Shown one piece after another: positions 1,141-63,685 of a stretch of 64,000 nt of DNA (its first letter is position 1; every line of letters starts with the position of its first letter). Both the position numbers and the translations under genes were made by a program. The notes below the pieces were generated by a model, which was not told the origin of the DNA, did not search any database, and saw only the letters and a program-made list of their open reading frames with translations. The DNA is taken from contig NC_088303.1 of the NCBI RefSeq assembly GCF_032854445.1, positions 503,501 through 567,500 on the forward strand, written 5' to 3'. The DNA comes from Liolophura sinensis (taxonomy: Eukaryota; Mollusca; Polyplacophora; Chitonida; Chitonidae).

Positions 1141-4100
1141 TATCACTAAGGTTAACCATCTGGATCTGGTAAGCGTAAATAATAGCAACTAGGGTTAACC
1201 ATCAGGATCTGGTAAGCGTAAACAATAACCACAAGGTTAACCATCAGGATCTGGTAAGGGTAAACATTAACTACTAGGGTTAACCATCAGGATCTGGTAA
1301 GCGTAAACAATAACCACAAGGGTTAACCACAGGATCTGGTAAGGGTAAACAATAACTACTAGGGTTAACCATCAGAGTCTAGTAAGCGTAATCAATAACC
1401 AAAAGGGTTAACCATCAGAGCCTGGTAAGCGTAATCAATAATCACAAGGGTTAACCATCAGAATATGGTAAGCGTAATCAATAACCACAAGGGTTAACCA
1501 TCAGAGTCTAGTAAGCGTAATCAATAACCAAAAGGGTTAACCATCAGGATATTGTAAGCGTAAACAATAACCACAAGGGTTAACCATTAGGATCTAGTAA
1601 GCGTAAACAATAACCACAAGGGTTAACCATTAGGATCTAGTAAGCGTAAACAATAACCACAAGGGTTAACCATCACGATATGGTAATCGTAAACAATAAC
1701 CACAAGGGTTAACCATCACGATATGATAAGCGTAATCAATAACCACAAGGGTTAACCATTAGGATCTGGTAAGGGTAAACAATAACTACTAGGGTTAACC
1801 ATCAGAGCCTGGTAAGCGTAATCAATAATCACAAGGGTTAACCATCAGAATATGGTAAGCGTTATCAATAACCACAAGGGTTAACCATCACGATATGGTA
1901 AAGGTAAACAATAACCACAAAGGTTAACCATCAGGGTATGGTAAGCGTAATCAATAACCACAAGGGTTAACCATCAGGATATGGTAAGTGTAATCAATAA
2001 CCACAAGGGTTAGCCATCAGGATCTGGTAAGCGTAATCAATAGCCACAAGGGTTAACCATCACGATATGGTAAAGGTAAACAATAACCACAAGGGTTAAC
2101 CATCACGATATGGTAAGCGGAAACAATAACCACAAGAGTTAACCATCAGGATCTGGAAAGCGTAAACAATAACCACAAGGGTTAACCATCAGGATCTGGT
2201 AAGCGTAAACAATACCTATTAAAGTTAGCCATCAGGAACTTGTAAGCCTAAACAATAACCACAAAGGTTAACCATCAGAAACTAGTAAGCGTAAGCAATA
2301 ACCACAAGGGTTAACCATCAGGATCTGGTAAGGGTAAACAATAACCACAAGGGTTAAACATCAGAGTCTGGTAAGCGTAATCAATAACCACAAGGGTTAA
2401 GCATCACGATATGGTAAGCGTAAACAATAACCACAAGGGTTAACCATCAGGATCTAGTAAGCGCAGACAATAACAACAAGGGTTAACCATCAGGATATGG
2501 TAAGCGTAATCAATAACCACAAGGGTTAACCAACAGGATATGGTAAGGGTAAACAATAACCACTAGGTTTATCCATCACGATATGGTAACGGTAAACAAT
2601 AACCACAAAGGTTAACCATCAGGGTATGGTAAGCGTAATCAATAACCACAAGGGTTAACCATCAGGATATGGTAAGTGTAATCAATAACCACAAGGGTTA
2701 ACCATCAGGATATGGTAAGCGTAATCAATAACCACAGGGGTTAACCAACAGGATATGGTAAGGGTAAACAATAACCACTAGGTTTATCCATCACGATATG
2801 GTAACGGTAAACAATAACCACAAGGGTTAACCATCAGGATATGGTTAGCGGAAACAATAACCACAAGGGTTAACCGTCAGGATCTGGAAAGAGTAAACAA
2901 TAACCACAAGGGTTAACCATCAGGATCTGGTAAGCGTAAACAATACCTAATAAAGTTAGCCATCAGGAACTTGTAAGCCTAAACAATAACCAAAAAGGTT
3001 AACCATCAGAAACTAGTAAGCGTAAGCAATAACCACAAGGGTTAACCATCAGGATCTGGTAAGGGTAAACAATAACCACAAGGGTTAACCATCAGTCTGG
3101 TAAGCGTAATCAATAACCACAAGGGTTAAGCATCACGATATGGTAAGCGTAAACAATAACCACAAAGGTTAACCATCAGGATCTGGTAAGCGTAAACCAT
3201 AACAACAAGAGTTACCTATCACGATATGGTAAGCGTAATCAATAACCACAAGGGTTAACCATCAGGATATGGTAAGGGTAAACAATAACCACTAGGGTTA
3301 TCCATCACGATATGGTAAGCTTAAAAAATAACCACAAGGGTTAACCATCAGGATCTGGTAAGCGTAAACAATACCTATTAAAGTTAGCCATCAGGAACTT
3401 GTAAGCCTAAACAATAACCACAAAGGTTAACCATCAGAAACTAGTAAGCGTAAGCAATAACCACAAGGGTTAACCATCAGGATCTGGTAAGGGTAAACAA
3501 TAACCACAAGGGTTAAACATCAGAGTCTGGTAAGCGTAATCAATAACCACAAGGGTTAAGCATCACGATATGGTAAGCGTAAACAATAACCACAAGGGTT
3601 AACCATCAGGATCTAGTAAGCGCAGACAATAACAACAAGGGTTAACCATCAGGATATGGTAAGCGTAATCAATAACCACAAGGGTTAACCAACAGGATAT
3701 GGTAAGGGTAAACAATAACCACTAGGTTTATCCATCACGATATGGTAACGGTAAACAATAACCACAAAGGTTAACCATCAGGGTATGGTAAGCGTAATCA
3801 ATAACCACCAGGGTTAACCATCAGGATATGGTAAGTGTAATCAATAACCACAAGGGTTAACCATCAGGATATGGTAAGCGTAATCAATAACCACAAGGGT
3901 TAACCAACAGGATATGGTAAGGGTAAACAATAACCACTAGGTTTATCCATCACGATATGGTAACGGTAAACAATAACCACAAGGGTTAACCATCAGGATA
4001 TGGTTAGCGGAAACAATAACCACAAGGGTTAACCGTCAGGATCTGGAAAGAGTAAACAATAACCACAAGGGTTAACCATCAGGATCTGGTAAGCGTAAAC

Positions 4101-4583
4101 AATACCTAATAAAGTTAGCCATCAGGAACTTGTAAGCCTAAACAATAACCAAAAAGGTTAACCATCAGAAACTAGTAAGCGTAAGCAATAACCACAAGGG
4201 TTAACCATCAGGATCTGGTAAGGGTAAACAATAACCACAAGGGTTAACCATCAGTCTGGTAAGCGTAATCAATAACCACAAGGGTTAAGCATCACGATAT
4301 GGTAAGCGTAAACAATAACCACAAAGGTTAACCATCAGGATCTGGTAAGCGTAAACCATAACAACAAGAGTTACCTATCACGATATGGTAAGCGTAATCA
4401 ATAACCACAAGGGTTAACCATCAGGATATGGTAAGGGTAAACAATAACCACTAGGGTTATCCATCACGATATGGTAAGCTTAAAAAATAACCACAATGGT
4501 TAACCATCACGATATGGTAAAGGTAAACAATAACCACAAGAGTTAACCATCAGGATCTGGTAAGCGTAAACAATAACCACAAG
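1141..4583. repeat. Minisatellite A, ~43-bp unit, left block
   Basis: About 80 head-to-tail copies of a ~43-bp unit. Its most constant words are GGGTTAACCATCAGGATC, GGTAAGCGTAAACAAT and AACCACAAG. Variants (TATGG for TCTGG, AATC for AAAC, a TACCTATTAAAGTTAGCC form) recur in blocks. The array carries on beyond a retroelement insertion at 8011-9712 and was originally one locus. No coding function is seen. Confidence 0.95.
2190..4500. repeat. Higher-order duplication (period 1159 bp) inside minisatellite A
   Basis: Variant units recur in the same order at a fixed distance. The AATACCTATT variant occurs at 2211 and 3370, and the AATACCTAATAAAG variant at 2942 and 4101. Both pairs are 1159 bases apart with nearly identical neighbours. 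About two copies of a 1.16-kb higher-order block are present, which points to a recent block duplication. Confidence 0.85.
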
Positions 4584-4835: not shown

Positions 4836-5688
4836 CTAGGCTCGGTGGGGTTCCTGAGCGGTTTGGAGGATTAGCAGATCATAAGCTGAGGGGAGGTAGA
4901 TGGCCGTGATCTCTGTTCAGGCTGGCTTTAATCTCTTAATCTGGATGGCTTCCTGTAGTTTTCGTTTCTTCCAATGGGGCTGATTCATGTTAAGTGTCCT
5001 GACTGTATTCCAGTTGATGTTGTGGGATGGTTTTCATGTATGTGGTCAGATATGGCAGATTGGAGTCAAGTTTCTGTACTGATGATTGGTGTTCTTTAAT
5101 TCTGGTTTGAAGCGGTCTGCCTGTTTCACCTATGTAGGAGTTGTTGCAGCTGCATTTTAATTGGTAGACAACTCCTTTGGAAGGCTGGGGTTTGGTTGGT
5201 GTCTTCTTTCCTGTGGCATGTAGGTGGGTCTTTAGTGTGGTCAGGCTTCTGAAGACTGTTTCTAATCCAGTTGTCTGTTTTATTAGGCGGGCTATTTTGT
5301 GGCTGGTTGGACCTATGTAGGGGAGGTTGATTCGTATACCGGGGCCTTCCACGTGGACTCTAGACTGTTGATTGTGTTCAGGTTGCGAGGACTTCTGGAT
5401 GGTTTTATTTACTTGGTCTGCTGGGTATCCATTCAGGTGGGTGAAAACTGTGCGCAGGTGTTGGATCTCTTCATCTAAGTTGCTATTACAGATGAGTTTA
5501 GCTCTCTTTGTGAGGGTGGAGATGATGCCGGTCTTGGTTTTGGGCGGGTGGTTGGACTTGTAGTGGATGTACTGGTCGGAGTGGGTCGGTTTGCGGTACA
5601 CTGTGGTTTGGAGAGCGTCCGCTGTTCTCTTCACGTGGACATCTAGGAATGGTATTTGTTGGTCTTTTTCAGTTTCCATGGTGAATTT
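4836..5688 (-). pseudogene. Penelope-like ORF fragment: linker plus GIY-YIG endonuclease, frameshifted
   Basis: Reading leftward from the junction, the frame carries the linker (KFTMETEKDQQIPFLDVHV) and then the endonuclease motifs GVVYQLKC and SYIGETGRPLQTRIKEH. At 5060-5061 an A is missing from a homopolymer that has three As in the sister copy (7567-7569). This throws the last ~80 codons out of frame. The original stop corresponds to 4836-4838. The five-A run at 5665-5669, which is wrong in the plus copy, is correct here. Confidence 0.88.
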
Positions 5689-5690
5689 AT

Positions 5691-7794
5691 GCCCAGCTCC
5701 GCCAAGCACAGACCGAGGCAAACAGACAGCTCAACTCGAAAATCAAATCCAGCCAACAACAAAAGTTCAACAACCTTACGCAAAGTACACGAGAGCCAGC
5801 CCACCCACACCAGTCCGAGCTCGTGAGAACCCAGTACATCAACAAGACTGTGGTGAACCTAAGCACTAAAGCACTCACTCCCCACCAACTTAATCTACTA
5901 GCAAAGGGATTGAATTTTGTCCCAACCACCAAAACCATACCCAAGGATGACTTCATCGTAGACATCGAAGAAGGCCTACAACAATTAGCACCCGGGGGCC
6001 ACATCGACTACCTCCGCCACCAGATAGCATCCCTACTGGACAAAGCACAACCCCAACGAACCAACCTAACTAAAGAAGAAAGCAGAGCCCTGGCCGAACT
6101 GAAGAAAGACAAGTCCATAACCATAGCACCAGCTGATAAAGGAAAAGCCGCAGCCATTCTTGACAAAACAGATTTTAACAAACTGGTAGACAACTTACTA
6201 ACAGACCAGTCCACATACCGAACCCTGAAAACTGACCCCACCAACAAGTTTGACCGGCAACACAGATCCCTCCTGAACCAACTCAAAACCAGTGGTGAGA
6301 TCACACCTGAAATCCAACGTAAGTTAACAGTGCAACACCCCCGTGCACCGTATGCCCGTGCAACCATCAAAATCCACAAGGACCCTGTAAAAGCCAGGTT
6401 ACTGATATGCTCCAGAGGAACTGTCTTCTATAACACTGCCCAGTACCTCACGAGACTACTATCACTATGGTCTAAGGCTGCCGACTCCTTTATCAAAGAC
6501 TCAGCTGACTTCTGTAACAAAATACGTCAGATCAATGAACCCTGCAAACTTGTGAGCTACGATGTTATTGACCTATTCACCAATGTCCCAACCAGCCAAG
6601 CCCTAGATGTCATAAGAGACAAGATAACAACCACTCCACCGACGACATCCCTATCCCCAGATAATATCATCCGCCTACTGGACTGTTGCCTGTCATCCAC
6701 TTACTTCACTTGGGGTGACACAATTTATGAGCAGATCCATGGCCTCCCCATGGGATCCCCACTATCCCCGATTGTCTCCGAGATCTACCTAACTGAACTA
6801 GAGAACAAAGCCTTAGCCACGTCACCCATCCAGCCCATCTGTTGGATGCGAAAAGTGGACGATACCTTCGTCGCACTTCAACACCACCAAGATCCATCTG
6901 CCTTACTTGACCACCTAAATTCACAACACCAACGCATCAAATTCACCATGGAAACTGAAAAAAGACCAACAAATACCATTCCTAGATGTCCACGTGAAGA
7001 GAACAGCGGACGCTCTCCAAACCACAGTGTACCGCAAACCGACCCACTCCGACCAGTACATCCACTACAAGTCCAACCACCCGCCCAAAACCAAGACCGG
7101 CATCATCTCCACCCTCACAAAGAGAGCTAAACTCATCTGTAATAGCAACTTAGATGAAGAGATCCAACACCTGCGCACAGTTTCCGCCCACCTGAATGGA
7201 TACCCAGCAGACCAAGTAAATAAAACCATCCAGAAGTCCTCGCAACCTGAACACAATCAACAGTCTAGAGTCCACGTGGAAGGCCCCGGTATACGAATCA
7301 ACCTCCCCTACATAGGTCCAACCAGCCACAAAATAGCCCGCCTAATAAAACAGACAACTGGAATAGAAACAGTCTTCAGAAGCCTGACCACACTAAAGAC
7401 CCACCTACATGCCACAGGAAAGAAGACACCAACCAAACCCCAGCCTCCCAAAGGAGTTGTCTACCAATTAAAATGCAGCTGCAACAACTCCTACATAGGT
7501 GAAACAGGCAGACCGCTTCAAACCAGAATTAAAGAACACCAATCATCAGTACAGAAACTTGACTCCAAATCTGCCATATCTGACCACATACATGAAAACC
7601 CATCCCACAACATCAACTGGAATACAGTCAGGACACTTAACATGAATCAGCCCCATTGGAAGAAACGAAAACTACAGGAAGCCATCCAGATTAAGAGATT
7701 AAAGCCCAGCCTGAACAGAGATCACGGCATCTACCTCCCCTCAGCTTATGATCTGCTAATCCTCCAAACCGCTCAGGAACCCCACCGAGCCTAG
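5691..7794 (+). pseudogene. Penelope-like RT + GIY-YIG endonuclease ORF, one frameshift
   Basis: The frame is open from the truncation junction (no stop between 5691 and 5823, so no start codon need exist here) to 7130. It resumes one frame over and ends at 7794. RT landmarks in order are: ADKGKAAAI (near 6130), motif A YDVIDLFTNVP (near 6560-6590), motif B GLPMGSPLSPI (near 6740-6775) and motif C RKVDDTF (near 6850-6870). The endonuclease motifs VVYQLKC and YIGETGRPLQTRIKEH sit near 7455-7540. The six-A run at 6958-6963 has one base more than the five-A run in the inverted sister copy and breaks the frame between RT and endonuclease. Apart from this and the 5' truncation the ORF looks intact, so the insertion is young. 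Confidence 0.9.
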
Positions 7795-7957: not shown

Positions 7958-8010
7958 GTGTTAAATAAACCAAGAAGTTGTACATCCATAAGAATGCCTT
8001 GTCCAGTGTA

Positions 8011-9712
8011 ATAACCACAAGGGTTAACCATCAGGATCTGGTCAGCGTAAACAATGCCTATTAAAGTTAGCCATCAGGAACTTGTAAGCGTAAACAATAA
8101 CCACTAAGGTTAACCATCGGAAACTAGTAAGCGTAAGCAATAACCACAAGGGTTAACCATCAGGATCTGATAAGTGTAATCAATAACCACTAGGGTTAAC
8201 CATCAGGATCTGGTAAGGGTAAACAATAACTACTAGAGTTAACCATCAGGAACTGGCAAGCTTAAACAATACCTATTAAAGTTAGCCATTAGGAACTTGT
8301 AAGCGTAAACAATTACCACTAAAGTTAACCATCAAAAACTGGTAAGCGTAAGCAATAACCACAAGGGTTAACCATCAGGATGTGGTAAGCATAATCAATA
8401 CCTATTAAAGTTAGCCATCAAGAAGTTGTAAGCGTAATTAATAACCACTAAAGTTAACCATCAGAAACTGGTAAGCGAAAGCAATAACCACTAGGGTTAA
8501 CCATCAGGATTTGCTAAGGGTAGACAATAACCACAAGGGTTAACCCTCAGGGTCTGGTAAGCGTAATCAATAACCACAAGGGTTAGCCATCACGATATGG
8601 TAAAGGTAAACAATAACCACAAGGGTTAACCATCAGGATATGGTAAGCGGAAACAAAAAACACAAGAGTTAACCATCAGGATCTGGAAAGCGCAAACAAT
8701 ACCTATTAAAGTTAGCCATCAGGAACTTGTAAGCGTAAACAATAACCACTAAGGTAAACAATCAGAAACTGGTAAGTGTAAGCAATAACCACTAGGGTTA
8801 ACCATCAGGATCTGGTAAGTGTAATCAATACCTATTAAAATTAGCCATCAGGAACTAGTAAGCGTAAACAATAACCACTAAAGTTAACCATCAGAAACTG
8901 GTAAGCGAAAGCAATAACCACAAGGGTTAACCATCATGATCTGCTAAGGGTAGACAATAACCACAAGGGTTAACCCTCAGGGTCTGGTAAGCGTAATCAA
9001 TAACCACAAGGGTTAACCATCAGGATTTGGTAAGGGTAAACAATAACTACTAGGGTTAACCATCAGAATCTGGTAAGGGTAAACAATAACTACAAGGGTT
9101 AACCATCAGGATGTGGCAAGCGTAAACAATACCTAATAAAATTAGCCATCAGGAACTTGTAAGCATAAACAATAACCACTAAAGTAAACAATCAGAAACT
9201 GGTAAGTGTAAGCAATAACCACTAGGGTTAACCATCAGGATCTGGTAAGTGTAATCAATACCTATTAAAATTAGCCATCAGGAACTAGTAAGCGTAAACA
9301 ATAACCACTAAAGTTAACCATCAGAAACTGGTAAGCGAAAGCAATAACCACAAGGGTTAACCATCATGATCTGCTAAGGGTAGACAATAACCACAAGGGT
9401 TAACCCTCAGGGTCTGGTAAGCGTAATCAATAACCACAAGGGTTAACCATCAGGATTTGGTAAGGGTAAACAATAACTACTAGGGTTAACCATCAGAATC
9501 TGGTAAGGGTAAACAATAACTACAAGGGTTAACCATCAGGATGTGGCAAGCGTAAACAATACCTAATAAAATTAGCCATCAGGAACTTGTAAGCATAAAC
9601 AATAACCACTAAGGCTAACCATCAGAAACTGGTAAGCGTAAGCAATAACCACTAGGGTTAACCATCAGGAACTTGCTAGCTTATAAACCACAAGGGTTAA
9701 CCATTAGAAACT
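8011..9712. repeat. Minisatellite A, right block (same ~43-bp unit)
   Basis: This continues the array interrupted by the Penelope insertion, with the same words (GGGTTAACCATCAGGATC, GTAAGCGTAA, AATAACCACAAG). It includes a second-level duplication: AATACCTATTAAAATTAGCC units occur 430 bases apart at 8827 and 9257 with matching neighbours. The array decays around 9670-9712. Confidence 0.94.
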
Positions 9713-18129: not shown

Positions 18130-18394
18130 GGGGCCTCCGTGGCTCAGTTGGTTTGCGCGCTAGCGCAGCTTTATGACTCAGGAGCTTCTCACCAATGCGG
18201 TCGCCGTGTGTTCAAGTCCAGCTCATGCTGGCTTCCTCTCTGGCCGTACGTGGGAAGGTCTGGCAACAACCTGCGAATGGTCGTGGGTTTCCGCTGGGCT
18301 GTGCCCGGTTTGCACCCACTATAATGTTGGGCGCCGTCGTATAAGTGAAATTTCTTGAGTACGGCGTAAAACACCAATCAAATAAATAAATAAA
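18130..18394 (+). mobile_element. Full-length tRNA-derived SINE with 13-bp target duplication
   Basis: The head GGGGCCTCCGTGGCTCAG contains a Pol III A box (TGGCTCAGTTGG), and the B box is GTTCAAGTCC near 18214. The body runs through CTGGCTTCCTCTCTGGCCG and GTATAAGTGAAATTTCTTGAG to a tail CACCAATCAAATAAATAAAT. TCCCATCTAACTC flanks it on both sides (18117-18129 and 18395-18407), an exact target-site duplication. It is the best-preserved copy of the family in the window. Confidence 0.93.
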
Positions 18395-18407
18395 TCCCAT
18401 CTAACTC

Positions 18408-30465: not shown

Positions 30466-32920
30466 TTGATACCGACAACCAGAGACAATGAGGATATACC
30501 GACAACCACAGACAATGACGATATACCGACAACCACAAACAATGACGATATACCGATAACCAAAGACAATGACGATATACCGACAACCAAAGACAATGAC
30601 AATATACCGATAACCACAGACAATGAAGATATGCCGACAACCAGAGACAATGACGATATACCGACAACCACAGACAATGACGATATACCGACAACCACAG
30701 ACAATGACGATATACCGACAACCACAGGCAATAAAGATATGCCGACAACCAGAGACAATGACGATATACCGACAACCACAGACAATGACGATATACCGTC
30801 AACCAGAGACAATGACGATATACCGTCAACCACAGACAATGACGATATACCGACAACCACAGACAATGAAGATATGCCGACAACCATAGACAATGAAGAT
30901 ATACCGACAACCACAGACAATGACGATATACCGACAACCACAGACAATGACGATATACCGACAACCACAGACAATGACGATATACCGACAACCACAGACA
31001 ATGACGAAATACCCACAACCAGAGACAATGACGATACACCGACAACCAGAGACAATGACGATATACCGACAACCAGAGAGAATGAAGATATAACGACAAC
31101 CACAGACAATGAAGATATACCGACAACCACAAACAATGACGATATACCGACAACCAGAGACAATGACGATATACCGACAACCAAAGACAATGAAGATATA
31201 CCGACAACCACAGACAATGAAGATATCCCGACAATCAGAGACAATGAAGATATACCGACAACCAGAGACGATGACGATATACTAACAACCAGAGACAATG
31301 ACGATACACTAACAACCAAAGACAATGACGATATACCGACAACCAGAGACAATGAAAATATACCAATAGCCAGAGACAATGACGATATACCGACAACCAC
31401 AGACAATGACGATATACCGACAACCACAGACAATGACCATATACCGACAACCACAAACAATGACGATATACCGATAACAACAAACAATGACGATATACTA
31501 ACAACCACAGACAATGACGATATACCGACAACCACACACAATGACAACCACAGACAATGACGATATACCGACAACCACAGACAATGACGATATACCCACA
31601 ACAAGAGACAATGACGATATACCCACAACCACAGACAATGACGATATACCGACAACCACAGACAATGACGATATACCGACAACCAGAGACAATGAAGCTA
31701 TGCCGACAACCAGAGACAATGACAATATACCGACAACCACAGACAATGATGAAACCGACAACCACAGACAATGACGATATACCAACAACCACAGACAATG
31801 AAGATATACCCACAACCAGAGACAATGAAGATATGCCCACAACCAGAGACAATGACGATATACCCACAACCACAGACAATGACGATATACCGACAAAAAG
31901 GACAATAACAATATGCCGTCAACCAGAGACAATGACGATATACTAACAACCACAGACAATGAAGATATGCCGACAACCAGAGACAATGACGATATACCGA
32001 CAACCACAGACAATGAAAATATGCCGACAACCAGAGACAATGATGATATACCAACAACCACAGACAATGAAGATATGCCCACAACCAGAGACAATGACGA
32101 TATACCCACAACCACAGACAATGAAAATATGCCGACAACCACAGACAATGAAGATATGCCCACAACCAGAGACAATGACGATATACCCACAACCACAGAC
32201 AATGACGATATACCGACAACAAAAGACAATAACAATATGCCGTCAACCACAGACAATGATGATATACTAACAACCACAGACAATGAAGATATGCCCACAA
32301 CCAGAGACAATGACGATATACCCACAACCAGAGACAATGACGATATACCGACAACAAAGGACAATAACGATATACCGTCAACCACAGACAATGATGAAAC
32401 CGACAACCACAGACAATGACGATATACTAACAACCACAGACAATGAAGATATGCCGACAACCAGAGACAATGACGATATACCGACAACCACAGACAATGA
32501 AAATATGCCCACAACCACAGACAATGAAGATATGCCCACAACCAGAGACAATGACGATATACCGACAACCATAGACAACGAAGATATGCCGACAACCACA
32601 AACAATGACGATATACTGACAACCACAGACAATGATGAAAGCGACAACCACAGACAATGACGATATACTGACAACCACAGACAATGAAGATATGCCGACA
32701 ACCAGAGACAAGGACGATATACCGACAACCACAGACAATGAAGATATGCCGACAACCACAGACAATGACGATACACCGACAACCACAGACAATGAAGATA
32801 TGCCGACAACCACAGACAATGACGATATACCGACAACCACAGACAACGACGATATACTGACAACCACAGACAATGAAGATACCGACAATCACAGACAATG
32901 ATAATATACCGACAACCTGT
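30466..32920. repeat. Minisatellite, 27-bp unit (intron 7)
   Basis: About 90 copies with ACCGACAACCACAGACAATG and ACGATAT. The unit is nine codons, so frames stay open for hundreds of codons on both strands (DNDDIPTTT on plus; HCLWLSVYR and IVIVCGCRY types on minus). Occasional partial units (around 31545, 31755, 32395, 32640) reset the frame. I treat it as intronic repeat, not coding. Confidence 0.96.
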
Positions 32921-44101: not shown

Positions 44102-44365
44102 GGGGGCCTCCGCGGCTCAGTTGGTTAGCGCTAGCGCAGCGTAATGACCCAGGAGTCTCTCACCAATGCAGTCGCTATGAGTTCAAGTCCAGCTCATGCT
44201 GGCTTCCTCTCCGGCCGTAAGTGGGAAGGTCTTGCAGCAACCTGAGGATGGTCATGGGTTTATCCCAGGCTCTGCTCGGTTTCCACCCACCGTAATGCTG
44301 ACTGTCGTAAAGTGAAATATTCTTGAGTACGGCTTAAAACATCGATCAAATAAATAAATAAAATA
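44102..44365 (+). mobile_element. Full-length SINE
   Basis: Head GGGGGCCTCCGCGGCTCAG with A box GGCTCAGTTGG, B box GTTCAAGTCC near 44180, tail CATCGATCAAATAAATAAAT. Inserted in the ~37-bp repeat. Confidence 0.9.
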
Positions 44366-44436
44366 AATGAATCAAACCACGGCATTAAACACCAACCGAC
44401 CCAACCATGGCATTAAACACCAGCCAATCAATGTAT

Positions 44437-50134: not shown

Positions 50135-50281
50135 CGTCACATGACAGCGTTTCTGAATTGAACACGTGCCTTCCCCCCACAGGACAGAGACAGGTGTTTG
50201 TGGGTGAACTAGGGGCGCCCTCTGCCGTGCGGACACAATCCCCGAAACAATTAGTCCCGTCTGTACTGCACACTTCAATCT
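50135..50281 (-). CDS. Receptor exon: second EGF module
   Basis: Acceptor TTCATTTCAG, donor GACG|GTAAAT; phases 1 in, 1 out. It encodes EIEVCSTDGTNCFGDCVRT, then TNTCLCPVGG and LSCDG. Six cysteines space as C-x6-C-x3-C-x16-C-x-C-x14-C; the third gap is longer than usual for LRP EGF modules. Confidence 0.86.
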
Positions 50282-50439
50282 CTGAAATGAATGGGAAATG
50301 TGGATAAATACTGGGAATAATTGACGAAGACACTAAACCGGTCTGACTTTACTCGGGAAATAGTAGCGACATTGTCACATGGAAAATAGAAACATAAAAT
50401 AATAAAAAATAATTTTTAACATAAAATCATCTTACCTGG

Positions 50440-52868
50440 ACAGATTCCTTTTGTCGTGTATAATATCATCTTAACTGTCCATGAAACATTTTCTTGCGTA
50501 CAAAATAGTCTTACCTGTCCATGATATCTCTTGTCGTGTATAAAATCCCCTTACCTGTCCATATTACCTTTTGTTTGCGTATAAAATCATCTTACCTGTC
50601 CATAATACATTTTCTTATGTACAAATTTATCCAACCTCTCTATAATACCTTTTGTTTGCGCATAAAAGCATCTTACCTGTCCATAATACATTTTCCTGTG
50701 TACAAAAATCGTCTTACCTGTCCATGATACCTTTTGTCATGTATAAAATCGTCTTACCTGTCCATGATACCTTTTGTCGTGTATAAAATCATCTTACCTG
50801 TCCATGATACCTTTTGTCGTGTATAAAATCGTCTTACCTGTCCATGGTACCTTTTGTCGTGTATAAAATCGTCTTACCTGTCCATGGTACCTTTTGTCGT
50901 GTATAAAATCGTCCTACCTGTCCATGATACCTTTTGTCATGTATAAAATCGTCTTACCTGTTCATGATACCTTTTGTCATGTATAAAATCGTCTTACCTG
51001 CCCACGATATCTTTTGTCGTGTATAAAATCAACTTACCTGTCAATGATACCTTTTGTCGTGTACAATATCATCTTAACTCTTCGTGATACCTTTTGTTCT
51101 ATATGGAATCATCTTAGTTGCCCATAACGTCTTTTAAAAAAAAAAAAGCAACGTACCTGTCTATTATGCCTTTTGTCGTGTACAAAATCACCTGTCTTTT
51201 GTCGCGTTTAAAATCATCTTATCTGTTCGTGATAAATTTTCTCGCATATAAAATCATCTTCGTTTAGTCGTGTTTAGAACCATCTTAACTCTTCATGGCA
51301 CCTTTTGTTGTGTATCGAATCATTTTACTTGCCCAGGATGTGTTTTCTCACATATAAAATCAACTTACCTGTACATGATACCTTTTGTCATGTATGAAAT
51401 CATCTTACCTGTCAATGATACCTTCTGTCATATATAAAATCATCTTAACTGTCAATGATACCTTTTGTCATGTATAAAATCATCTTTCCTGTCCATGATA
51501 GCTTTTGTCATGTATAAAATCATCTTACCTGTCAATGATACCTTTTGTTGTGTATAAAATCATCTTACCTGTCAATGATACCTTTTGTTGTGTATGAAAT
51601 CATCTTACCTGTCAATGATACCTTTTGTTGTGTATAAAATCATCTTTCCTGTCCATGATAGCTTTTGTCATGTATGAAATCATCTTACCTGTCCATGATA
51701 CCTTCTGTCATGTATAAAATCATCTTACCTGTCAATGATACCTTTTGTTGTGTATAAAATCATCTTTCCTGTCCATGATAGCTTTTGTCATGTATAAAAT
51801 CATCTTACCTGTCAATGATACCTTTTGTTGTGTATAAAATCATTTTACCCGCCCATCATGTCCTTTGTTGCGTTTAAAAATATCCTACTGGATAATTTTG
51901 TTGTGTATTGAATCATCTTTCTTGCATATGATGTCTTTTATCGCGTATAAAATCATCTTACCTGTTAATGATACTTTTTGTCGTATATAAAATCATCTTA
52001 ACTTGACATAATACCTTCTGTATAAAATCATTTTAGCCGCCCATGGTACCTTTTGTTGTGTATGGAATCATCTAAGTTGCCCATGGTGTCTTATGTCACG
52101 TTTAAAATCATCTTACCTGTTCATAACACCTTTTGTCGTGTATAAAATCATCTTACCTGTCAATGATACCTTTTGTCGTGTATAAAATCATCTTACCTGT
52201 CAGTGATACTTTTTGTTTTGTATGAAATCATCTTTCTTGCCCATGAAGTTTTTTGTAGTGTATAAAATCATCTTACCTGTCAATGATACCTTCTGTCGTG
52301 TATAAAATCATCTTATCTGTCAATGATACTTTTTGTTGTGTATGAAATCATCTTAACTGTCAATGATACCTTTTGTTGTGTATAAAATCATCTTACCTGC
52401 CAATGATACTTTTTGTTGTGTATGAAATCATCTTTCTTGCCCATGAAGTTTTTTTTGTAGTGTATAAAATCATCTTACCTGTCAATGATACCTTCTGTCG
52501 TGTATAAAATCATCTTACCTGTCAATGATACTTTTTGTTTTTTATGAAATCATCTTACCTGTCAATGATACCTTTTGTTGTGTATAAAATCATCTTACCT
52601 GCCAATGATACCTTTTGTCGTGTATAAAAACATCTTAACCCTTCATGATACCTTTTGTTGTGTATAAAAATCATCTTACCTGTCAATGATACCTTTTGTT
52701 ATGTATAAAATCATCTTACCTGTCCATGATACCTTTTGTTCTGTATAGAATCATCTTAGTCGCCCATCATGTCTTTTGTCCTGTATACAATCAGCTTACC
52801 TGTCAATAATATCTTTTGTCGTGTACAAAATCATTTTACCTGTCCATGATACCTCTTGTCGTGTATAC
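50440..52868 (-). repeat. Exon-seeded minisatellite, ~40-bp unit x ~60, each with a consensus splice donor on the gene strand
   Basis: On the plus strand the unit is TCATCTTACCTGTCCATGAT followed by ACCTTTTGTCGTGTATAAAA. On the minus (gene) strand this is TATCATGGACAG|GTAAGATG, a near-perfect 5' splice site. The unit matches the 3' end of the adjoining exon (52840-52868) plus its donor. The coding end is the first unit. The array fills nearly the whole 2.56-kb intron. Confidence 0.93.
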
Positions 52869-53002
52869 TTGATTTTGTCGGCGCTCAAGTGGTTTTGTAG
52901 CACGCTGATAGTACCAGATTTTCTCTCATATGACATAACGGAATTTTCCACCTGGTCCGTCCAAAATAAAGAAAATCCCATTGAAGTAACATCGGCAGCA
53001 CC
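52840..53002 (-). CDS. Receptor exon: last blade of second propeller; 3' end lies in the first repeat unit
   Basis: Acceptor CTTGTTTACAG (phase 0). It encodes SLFWTDQVENSVMSYER and SADKIKYTRQEVSWT. The donor GGACAG|GTAAAA at 52840 leaves phase 1, which the following EGF exon needs. An earlier GTATAC at 52868 would leave phase 2 and does not fit. The last ~29 coding bases therefore belong to the repeat unit. Confidence 0.78.
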
Positions 53003-55160: not shown

Positions 55161-55303
55161 CTGTTCAATCGGATCGTACGCTAATCCCATTGGCTGTCTT
55201 GCTCTTCCAATCAACGTGCGCTGCATTTCGGTTGGCTTATTCAAATCGATGAAGCCAACCTCTCCATTCTTTGCCGACGTGTAAAGAAGAATTTCCGAAG
55301 GAA
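55161..55303 (-). CDS. Receptor exon: second propeller, blade 1
   Basis: Acceptor CTTTTCTGATAG, donor CAG|GCAGGT (GC type); phases 1 in, 0 out. It encodes IPSEILLYTSAKNGEVGFID, then RQPMGLAYDPIEQ. Joining to AVFYSDIK restores the normal D-x-x-x-x-x-V-[YF]-[WY]-[TS]-D spacing. Confidence 0.84.
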
Positions 55304-55850: not shown

Positions 55851-55977
55851 TAAGACAACAAAGGCCGCATACAATTTCACATTATCACAATGCCCAGATT
55901 TCATTCTGCAATTTCACAAAAGCGCAGCGCCCTGATTTAATTTTACAATTTCACAATACCACGGCGTCCAGACTTAC

Positions 55978-56109
55978 TTTTGCAAAGCCTATCATCAGCC
56001 AATGAGTAGCCTCCATAGGTAGGACATGTGCACTGATATCCGTACTGATCACTCGGCAAACACATATGAGAGCACGGGATGGCCTTCCTTGTACCACATG
56101 GGACAGACA
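55978..56109 (-). CDS. Receptor exon: first EGF module
   Basis: Acceptor TTTTTTCATGCAG, donor CAAAA|GTAAGT; phases 1 in, 1 out. It encodes VSVPCGTRKAIPCSHMCLPS, then YQCTCPTYGG and DDRLCK. Cysteine spacing C-x7-C-x3-C-x8-C-x-C-x11-C is as in LDL receptor/LRP EGF modules. Confidence 0.88.
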
Positions 56110-57795: not shown

Positions 57796-58034
57796 GGTCA
57801 ATAAGTTAGCGCGCTAGCCCAGCGTAATGACCCAGAAGCCTCTCACCAATGCAGTCACTGTGAGTTAAGTCCAGCCCATGCTGGCCTCCTCTCAGGCCGT
57901 ACGTGGGAAGGTCTGTCAGGGATGGTCGTGGGTTTCCCCCAGGCTCTGCCCACTTTCCTCCCACCATAATGCTCGTATAATTGAAATATTCTTGAGTACG
58001 GCGAAAAATACCAATCAGATAAATAAAAAAATAA
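57796..58034 (+). mobile_element. SINE with 13-bp target duplication
   Basis: Slightly 5'-truncated SINE (starts within the A-box region, GGTCAATAAGTTAGCGCGC), tail CCAATCAGATAAATAAAAAA. ATACACGTGAGCT flanks it at 57783-57795 and 58035-58047, an exact duplication. Confidence 0.9.
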
Positions 58035-63325: not shown

Positions 63326-63417
63326 GCACAGCATTTAAAATATTTAAAATTTTCATCAAGTGACAAATTCGGTAAGCTGCGATGGAACTCTGACATGACT
63401 GACTGGCGTGAACGATA

Positions 63418-63685
63418 TTTATTTATTTATCTGATGGGTGTTTTACCCAGTACTCAAGAATATTTCACATTTACGACGGCGGCCAACATTATGGTGGGTG
63501 GAAACCGGGTAGAGCCCGGGAGAAACCCACGGCCATTCGCAGGTTGCTGCAAGACCTTCCCACGTAGGACTGGAAAGGAAGCCATCATGAGCTGGACTTG
63601 AACTCAAAGAGGCCGCATTGGTGAGAGGCTTCTGGGGTCATAACTCTGCGTTGGCGCGCTAACCAACTGAACCACGGAGGCCCCC
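63418..63685 (-). mobile_element. Full-length SINE with target duplication
   Basis: TTTATTTATTTATCTGATGG at the left and CAACTGAACCACGGAGGCCC at the right (tRNA-like head on minus). GCGTGAACGATA (63406-63417) and GCGTGAGCGATA (63686-63697) form a 12-bp target duplication with one mismatch. Confidence 0.92.

Follow-up and report, generated by a model that had tools for sequence, protein, structure and literature searches.

One intron of a gene related to the LDL receptor, on the minus strand of a 64-kb window of contig NC_088303.1 (by window we mean the whole stretch of 64,000 nucleotides that was analysed), is filled for most of its length by a tandem array whose 40-bp unit matches the junction at which the intron begins: the last 28 bases of the upstream exon plus the first 12 bases of the intron, 5' splice site (donor) included. 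The array holds 34 intact copies of the donor motif CAG/GTAAG (the slash marks the splice junction), all of them downstream of an authentic donor, CAG/GTAAAA, that is weaker than they are. We think it very probable that this is a minisatellite of the type known from amphioxus as a mirage, seeded at an exon-intron boundary and expanded neutrally, and that the exon-proximal donor is still the one used, owing to its position and to the survival of in-frame mRNA.

The array and the boundary it spans

Tandem Repeats Finder (TRF) places the array at 50421-52867, with 61.1 copies of the 40-bp unit. Cyclic alignment divides it into 62 units, of which the first is the end of the upstream exon itself (exon B5 in our gene model) and the other 61 are intronic, occupying most of the 2558-nt intron (50282..52839). 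The start of the array lies within the exon, and its units keep register with the junction, where the exon ends ACAG/GTAAAATG with the first intronic base (+1) at 52839. Aligning the exon end (28 bases plus donor) with an array copy gives a score of 91, whereas none of 40 shuffles exceeded 30; the tandem units thus cross what phase and homology indicate to be a genuine exon-intron boundary, as they do in mirages. An earlier note on this DNA, which had described a tandem unit of about 40 bp matching the exon end and donor, is borne out here, although the match extends over 28 coding bases rather than the last 29 or so. Its figure of about 60 consensus donors applies to the units but not to the sites, as CAG/GTAAG is intact in only 34 of the 61 intronic units and the GT is kept in 41; retention of AG/GT in many, but not all, units is again a property of mirages. 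The commonest donor in the array, CAG/GTAAGA, is found in 30 of the 62 units. Within the 64-kb window, CAGGTAAG has 34 occurrences in the array, well beyond chance, and three elsewhere on the minus strand (two of these being donors of this gene, of exons A1 and C3); the plus strand has none. The final intact copy, at 50435, lies just beyond the start of 50440 given in the earlier note.

Units identical to one another are confined to the interior (units 8/27/29/32/34, 10/15, 28/35 and 51/52), with none among units 2, 3 and 56-62. This pattern of a homogenised interior and less homogenised edges, read from the unit table without a formal test, is a further mirage property; together with the way in which conservation is distributed along the unit (see below), it is what drift and homogenisation would be expected to produce in a minisatellite. 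In plus-strand orientation, the unit (50421-52867) includes CTTACCTG, a sequence present at the 5' end of U1 snRNA, and an antisense transcript of the array would bear dozens of such U1-like stretches.

The host gene is partial. Between 60686 and 48400, twelve exons join into a stop-free frame of 703 amino acids with all 11 joins in phase, where the donors of exons A4 (a weak GTGCTT) and B1 were picked to preserve phase, the end of exon C1 at 48400 is arbitrary, and exons C2 and C3 were left unjoined. The B1 donor, at 55161, is an apparent GC donor (CAG/GCAGGT). In PDB, the best match of the joined product is LRP2 (5e-117), with LRP4 and LRP6 also matched, and Pfam recognises SGL (1.8e-13) and Ldl_recept_b, the class B LDL-receptor repeat (2.8e-08). 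These matches indicate YWTD propeller repeats and EGF-like modules, as expected of an LDL-receptor-related protein, and confirm that the adjoining gene is a receptor, as had been proposed. Among the matches listed, the LRP2 alignments are confined to the first 389 of the 703 residues, so that the B5 region is included on the strength of the reading frame and of a weak match to LDLR.

Exon B5 (52840..53002, 163 nt), placed by phase and homology, is predicted to form the final blade of the second YWTD propeller and joins its neighbours in phase on both sides. It leaves one base (phase 1), and exon EGF2 (50135..50281, 147 nt; acceptor TTTCAG/AGATTG, phase 2) gives the missing two, which yields ...KYTRQEVSWT-EIEVCSTDGTN... 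as the protein sequence over the join. In a phmmer search the tail of B5, 'tr.qevswte', was aligned to 'tqpRgvnWce' of LDLR (entry E-value 4e-4, a weak match), and by this alignment the repeated exon tail encodes part of the linker between propeller and EGF module. Human LDLR intron 13 lies at a matching place and in a matching phase, so that the intron between B5 and EGF2 looks old. An exon end at 52869, which the earlier note had raised as an alternative, does not fit: its GTATAC scores no higher than 0 in the donor scan, and the resulting 134-nt exon would leave phase 2, which cannot be joined to a phase-2 acceptor.

Strength, reading frame and position of the authentic donor

The authentic donor (52834..52842) scores 3.39 on a position weight matrix (PWM) and forms a duplex with U1 at -8.8 kcal/mol, the matrix and the U1 5' end used for scoring both being general ones. 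Intact copies reach PWM scores of 7.18 to 8.65, and 37 sites of the stretch score at least 4. U1 pairing gives a similar picture: 36 of the 61 intronic units equal or surpass the real donor, and 35 of them, at -11.2 to -12.6 kcal/mol, surpass it by at least 1 kcal/mol. That the real GTAAAA is the weaker site, as claimed previously, is therefore correct, and the claim of dozens of U1-type sites at least as strong holds for these 36 units, though not for some 60. The main difference between real donor and copies is at position +5, which is A in the former and G in 58 of 61 copies. By the standards of its own gene the real donor is ordinary, ranking seventh of 13 donors by PWM and fourth by U1 pairing.

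Imagine, then, that a copy were used instead. Splicing at the first intact copy would add 40 nt to the exon and shift the frame. Translating 16 CAGGT[AG]A sites, namely the authentic one and 15 copies (with extensions of up to 1111 nt), we find that only the authentic site is stop-free and that all 15 copies run into a stop codon. Later copies, which were not translated singly, lie past the same stop, so that, as read from this sequence, a full-length receptor protein would require the exon-proximal donor. How splicing might choose that donor was considered an open question in the earlier note, but it is not wholly so. The intron 7 donor of human F7 belongs to the first of several repeats of 37 bp; normally no site downstream of it is used, a choice that a review credits to oriented scanning (PMC6627357). 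The frame logic for our 16 translated sites agrees with a comparable use of the most upstream site.

Might RNA structure hide the copies? In folding predictions, copies are less accessible than they are with shuffled spacers (median 0.015 versus a mean of 0.069, sd 0.014, over 30 shuffles in which a spacer reverted to the original upon failure). The folding window determines whether the real site comes out as the more open one: over five settings, the number of copies that equal or exceed its openness varies from 0 to 10 of 34. Most other donors of the receptor gene are likewise predicted to be closed. Structure would thus be a weak contributor at most.

We suggest the following scenario. A 40-bp segment, made up of 28 exon-end and 12 intron-start bases and including the donor, would have been tandemly duplicated, and then expanded and homogenised to give 61 intronic copies, carrying the 5' splice-site look-alikes along as passengers. 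Because the exon tail codes for the propeller-EGF linker (going by the weak LDLR match), the exon is likelier than the array to have been the founder. Repeat expansion is in any case ordinary in the window, where about 26 kb of the 64 kb is made up of tandem arrays (25 intervals merged from the repeat list, with some short rows omitted). The mature mRNA most likely retains the exon-proximal donor, for two reasons: position, in that this is the most upstream competent site completing the exon defined by its acceptor, would outweigh strength, and transcripts spliced to a copy would meet a stop codon and be degraded.

Conservation of the copies and competing explanations

If arrays of this sort were kept as U1 sites, we would expect the donor GT to be the best kept part of the unit. 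Instead, the GT pair ranks 30th among 40 adjacent column pairs, and the +1 G survives in 80% of units when the mean over the 31 non-donor columns is 85%. We therefore reject selection on U1 sites, the most favourable result for which is an 11th rank for the donor 9-mer among 40 windows. Nor are intact copies depleted close to the exon, where there are seven in ten units as opposed to 27 in 51 further away (Fisher P = 0.49). Overall, the conservation, poly(A)-signal and pyrimidine checks described in this section gave no good evidence that U1 binding, recursive splicing or telescripting is under selection.

Several observations weigh against a purely passive array beside a quietly functioning donor. 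The donor 9-mer just mentioned is slightly better kept than the rest of the unit (0.898 versus 0.852). The 35 units that pair better with U1 are no distant competitors, the nearest intact copy being 40 nt downstream. A G>A change at +5 in the first repeat of F7, which produces the state that is normal here, leads to exon skipping and to activation of a downstream intronic 5' site, although the review does not state whether that site belongs to a repeat (PMC6627357); a second review names exon skipping (PMC10572768). Quiet use of the proximal donor should consequently not be taken for granted. Our analysis covers the genomic sequence of one haplotype. Taking these points further, we tentatively entertain, with rather more doubt than confidence, that a state pathogenic in F7, in which a +5A donor stands ahead of dozens of +5G copies, is permanent in the wild-type gene here, which would cope with it either through a near-exclusive rule of position or with the array as a brake whose effect depends on its length, part of the transcripts being routed to decay.

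The idea of a brake can be pressed into a full alternative, in which the array is a tuner of splicing: stronger downstream copies would take some of the transcripts, causing frameshifts and nonsense-mediated decay, and receptor output would track array length. The deficit of the real donor of at least 1 kcal/mol relative to 35 of 61 units is what such a tuner would call for, as are the nearest intact copy at +40, which would yield a 203-nt exon, and the stops introduced by 15 of 15 translated copies, and the F7 +5A mutation acts in the same direction (PMC6627357). Against it, the donor GT shows no more conservation than the rest of the unit, and amphioxus mirages leave splicing undisturbed in the cases tested (PMC3087553). 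We consider this explanation unlikely.

Much less probable still is the suggestion in the earlier note that the array might serve as a platform for U1, either recruiting many U1 snRNPs to suppress premature polyadenylation (telescripting) or titrating U1. It is true that 34 intact CAG/GTAAG motifs in one intron contrast with three on the remaining minus strand. Yet neither AATAAA nor ATTAAA occurs in the 2558-nt intron (the whole minus strand has 70 and 28, respectively), leaving no visible internal signal to suppress, even if neighbouring introns could still be protected. U1 is, moreover, too abundant to be titrated by a single pre-mRNA, and the 30th rank of the GT speaks against this role as well, so that the suggestion finds no support here. 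We give even less credence to recursive splicing or intron birth, whereby the AG/GT of a unit would act as acceptor and then donor, or units would be 40-nt GT-AG introns: in 34 of 61 units an AG does directly precede GTRAG, as at a recursive splice site, but no polypyrimidine tract was seen before it in the seven units inspected, the pyrimidine share over 15 nt being 0.20-0.33 in all seven compared to 0.71-1.0 over 14 nt at the 12 acceptors of the gene model (whose candidate list was itself filtered at 0.5), and a unit with so pyrimidine-poor an AG context is unlike either a recursive splice site or an intron.

Repeats elsewhere in the window and known parallels

With a pass mark of at least 4 above the shuffle maximum, only one of 11 introns of the gene passes a test for boundary seeding on the donor side and none of 11 on the acceptor side, and we reject boundary seeding as a gene-wide rule. 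Intron B2 is 1 above its shuffle maximum (19 versus 18) and hence below the pass mark. Acceptor seeding of the array beside exon C1 failed (20 versus 21). Exon EGF1 scores 21 versus 22, even though a 37-bp array of about three copies (55870-55981, minus strand) starts at its donor. The first of these copies opens with the four terminal bases of EGF1 and the donor, AAAA/GTAAGT, and the other two, which are 28/37 and 27/37 identical to it, lack the GT. This may be a second, small mirage, but it is not significant in the boundary test.

Other parts of the window are also repetitive. The stretch 4990-7794 holds a reverse-transcriptase frame (RVT_1, 4.8e-08), a following frame that resembles a GIY-YIG domain (there was no Pfam match) and an inverted partial copy at 4990-5730, and it is flanked by arrays at 1150-4583 and 8010-9670 that have nearly the same 43-bp unit. 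The whole has the appearance of a Penelope-like element between tandem repeats. A dispersed repeat of about 250 bp, which resembles a mollusc SINE and would thereby hint at a mollusc as host, is present at 18151-18395, 44128-44368, 57805-58033 and 63416-63663, with shorter pieces elsewhere; the copies compared are 77-85% identical. At 30469-32917 a 27-bp array has long open frames on both strands, the plus-strand frame reading (IPTTTDNDD)n. Neither Rfam nor ARAGORN found a match in the window.

A literature search for tandem repeats with cryptic sites gave no match. The kind of array described here is already known, from mirages and from F7. The G1P3/IFI6 minisatellite is a further candidate parallel, its copies reportedly providing multiple splice donors, as a reference title says, while ours are potential donors. 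Tandem duplication can also create introns, as two papers indicate for variable repeats at exon-intron boundaries (PMC2812944) and for other tandem duplications (PMC4974935). As in intron gain by duplication of an AGGT segment, the segment duplicated here holds AG/GT; unlike in that process, an existing intron has been enlarged and no new intron is evident.

Amphioxus mirages are tandem repeats across exon-intron boundaries in Adh3, the globin genes BflGb6 and BflGb9, troponin C and PGBD5; many of their units keep AG/GT, their copy number varies among haplotypes, and regular splicing was undisturbed in tested cases (PMC3087553; PMC3902484). The Adh3 units range from 10 to 72 bp, which includes the size of our 40-bp unit, and here too AG/GT is kept in many but not all copies. 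Our array differs in having 61 intronic copies as opposed to six and three in two BflGb6 haplotypes, and in a real donor that is weaker than the intact copies. If the host is a mollusc, mirage-type arrays would reach beyond the lancelets described under that name in these two reports.

F7 intron 7 is the human counterpart. In both genes the authentic donor lies in the first repeat and similar copies follow downstream; but the +5A of the first unit, which is a disease mutation in F7, is the normal state here. What is notable, therefore, is the number of copies and the combination of a normal first donor with a +5A that is harmful in F7. With one weak proximal donor facing 34 stronger and near-identical copies in the same intron, the array constitutes a natural test of position against U1 affinity.
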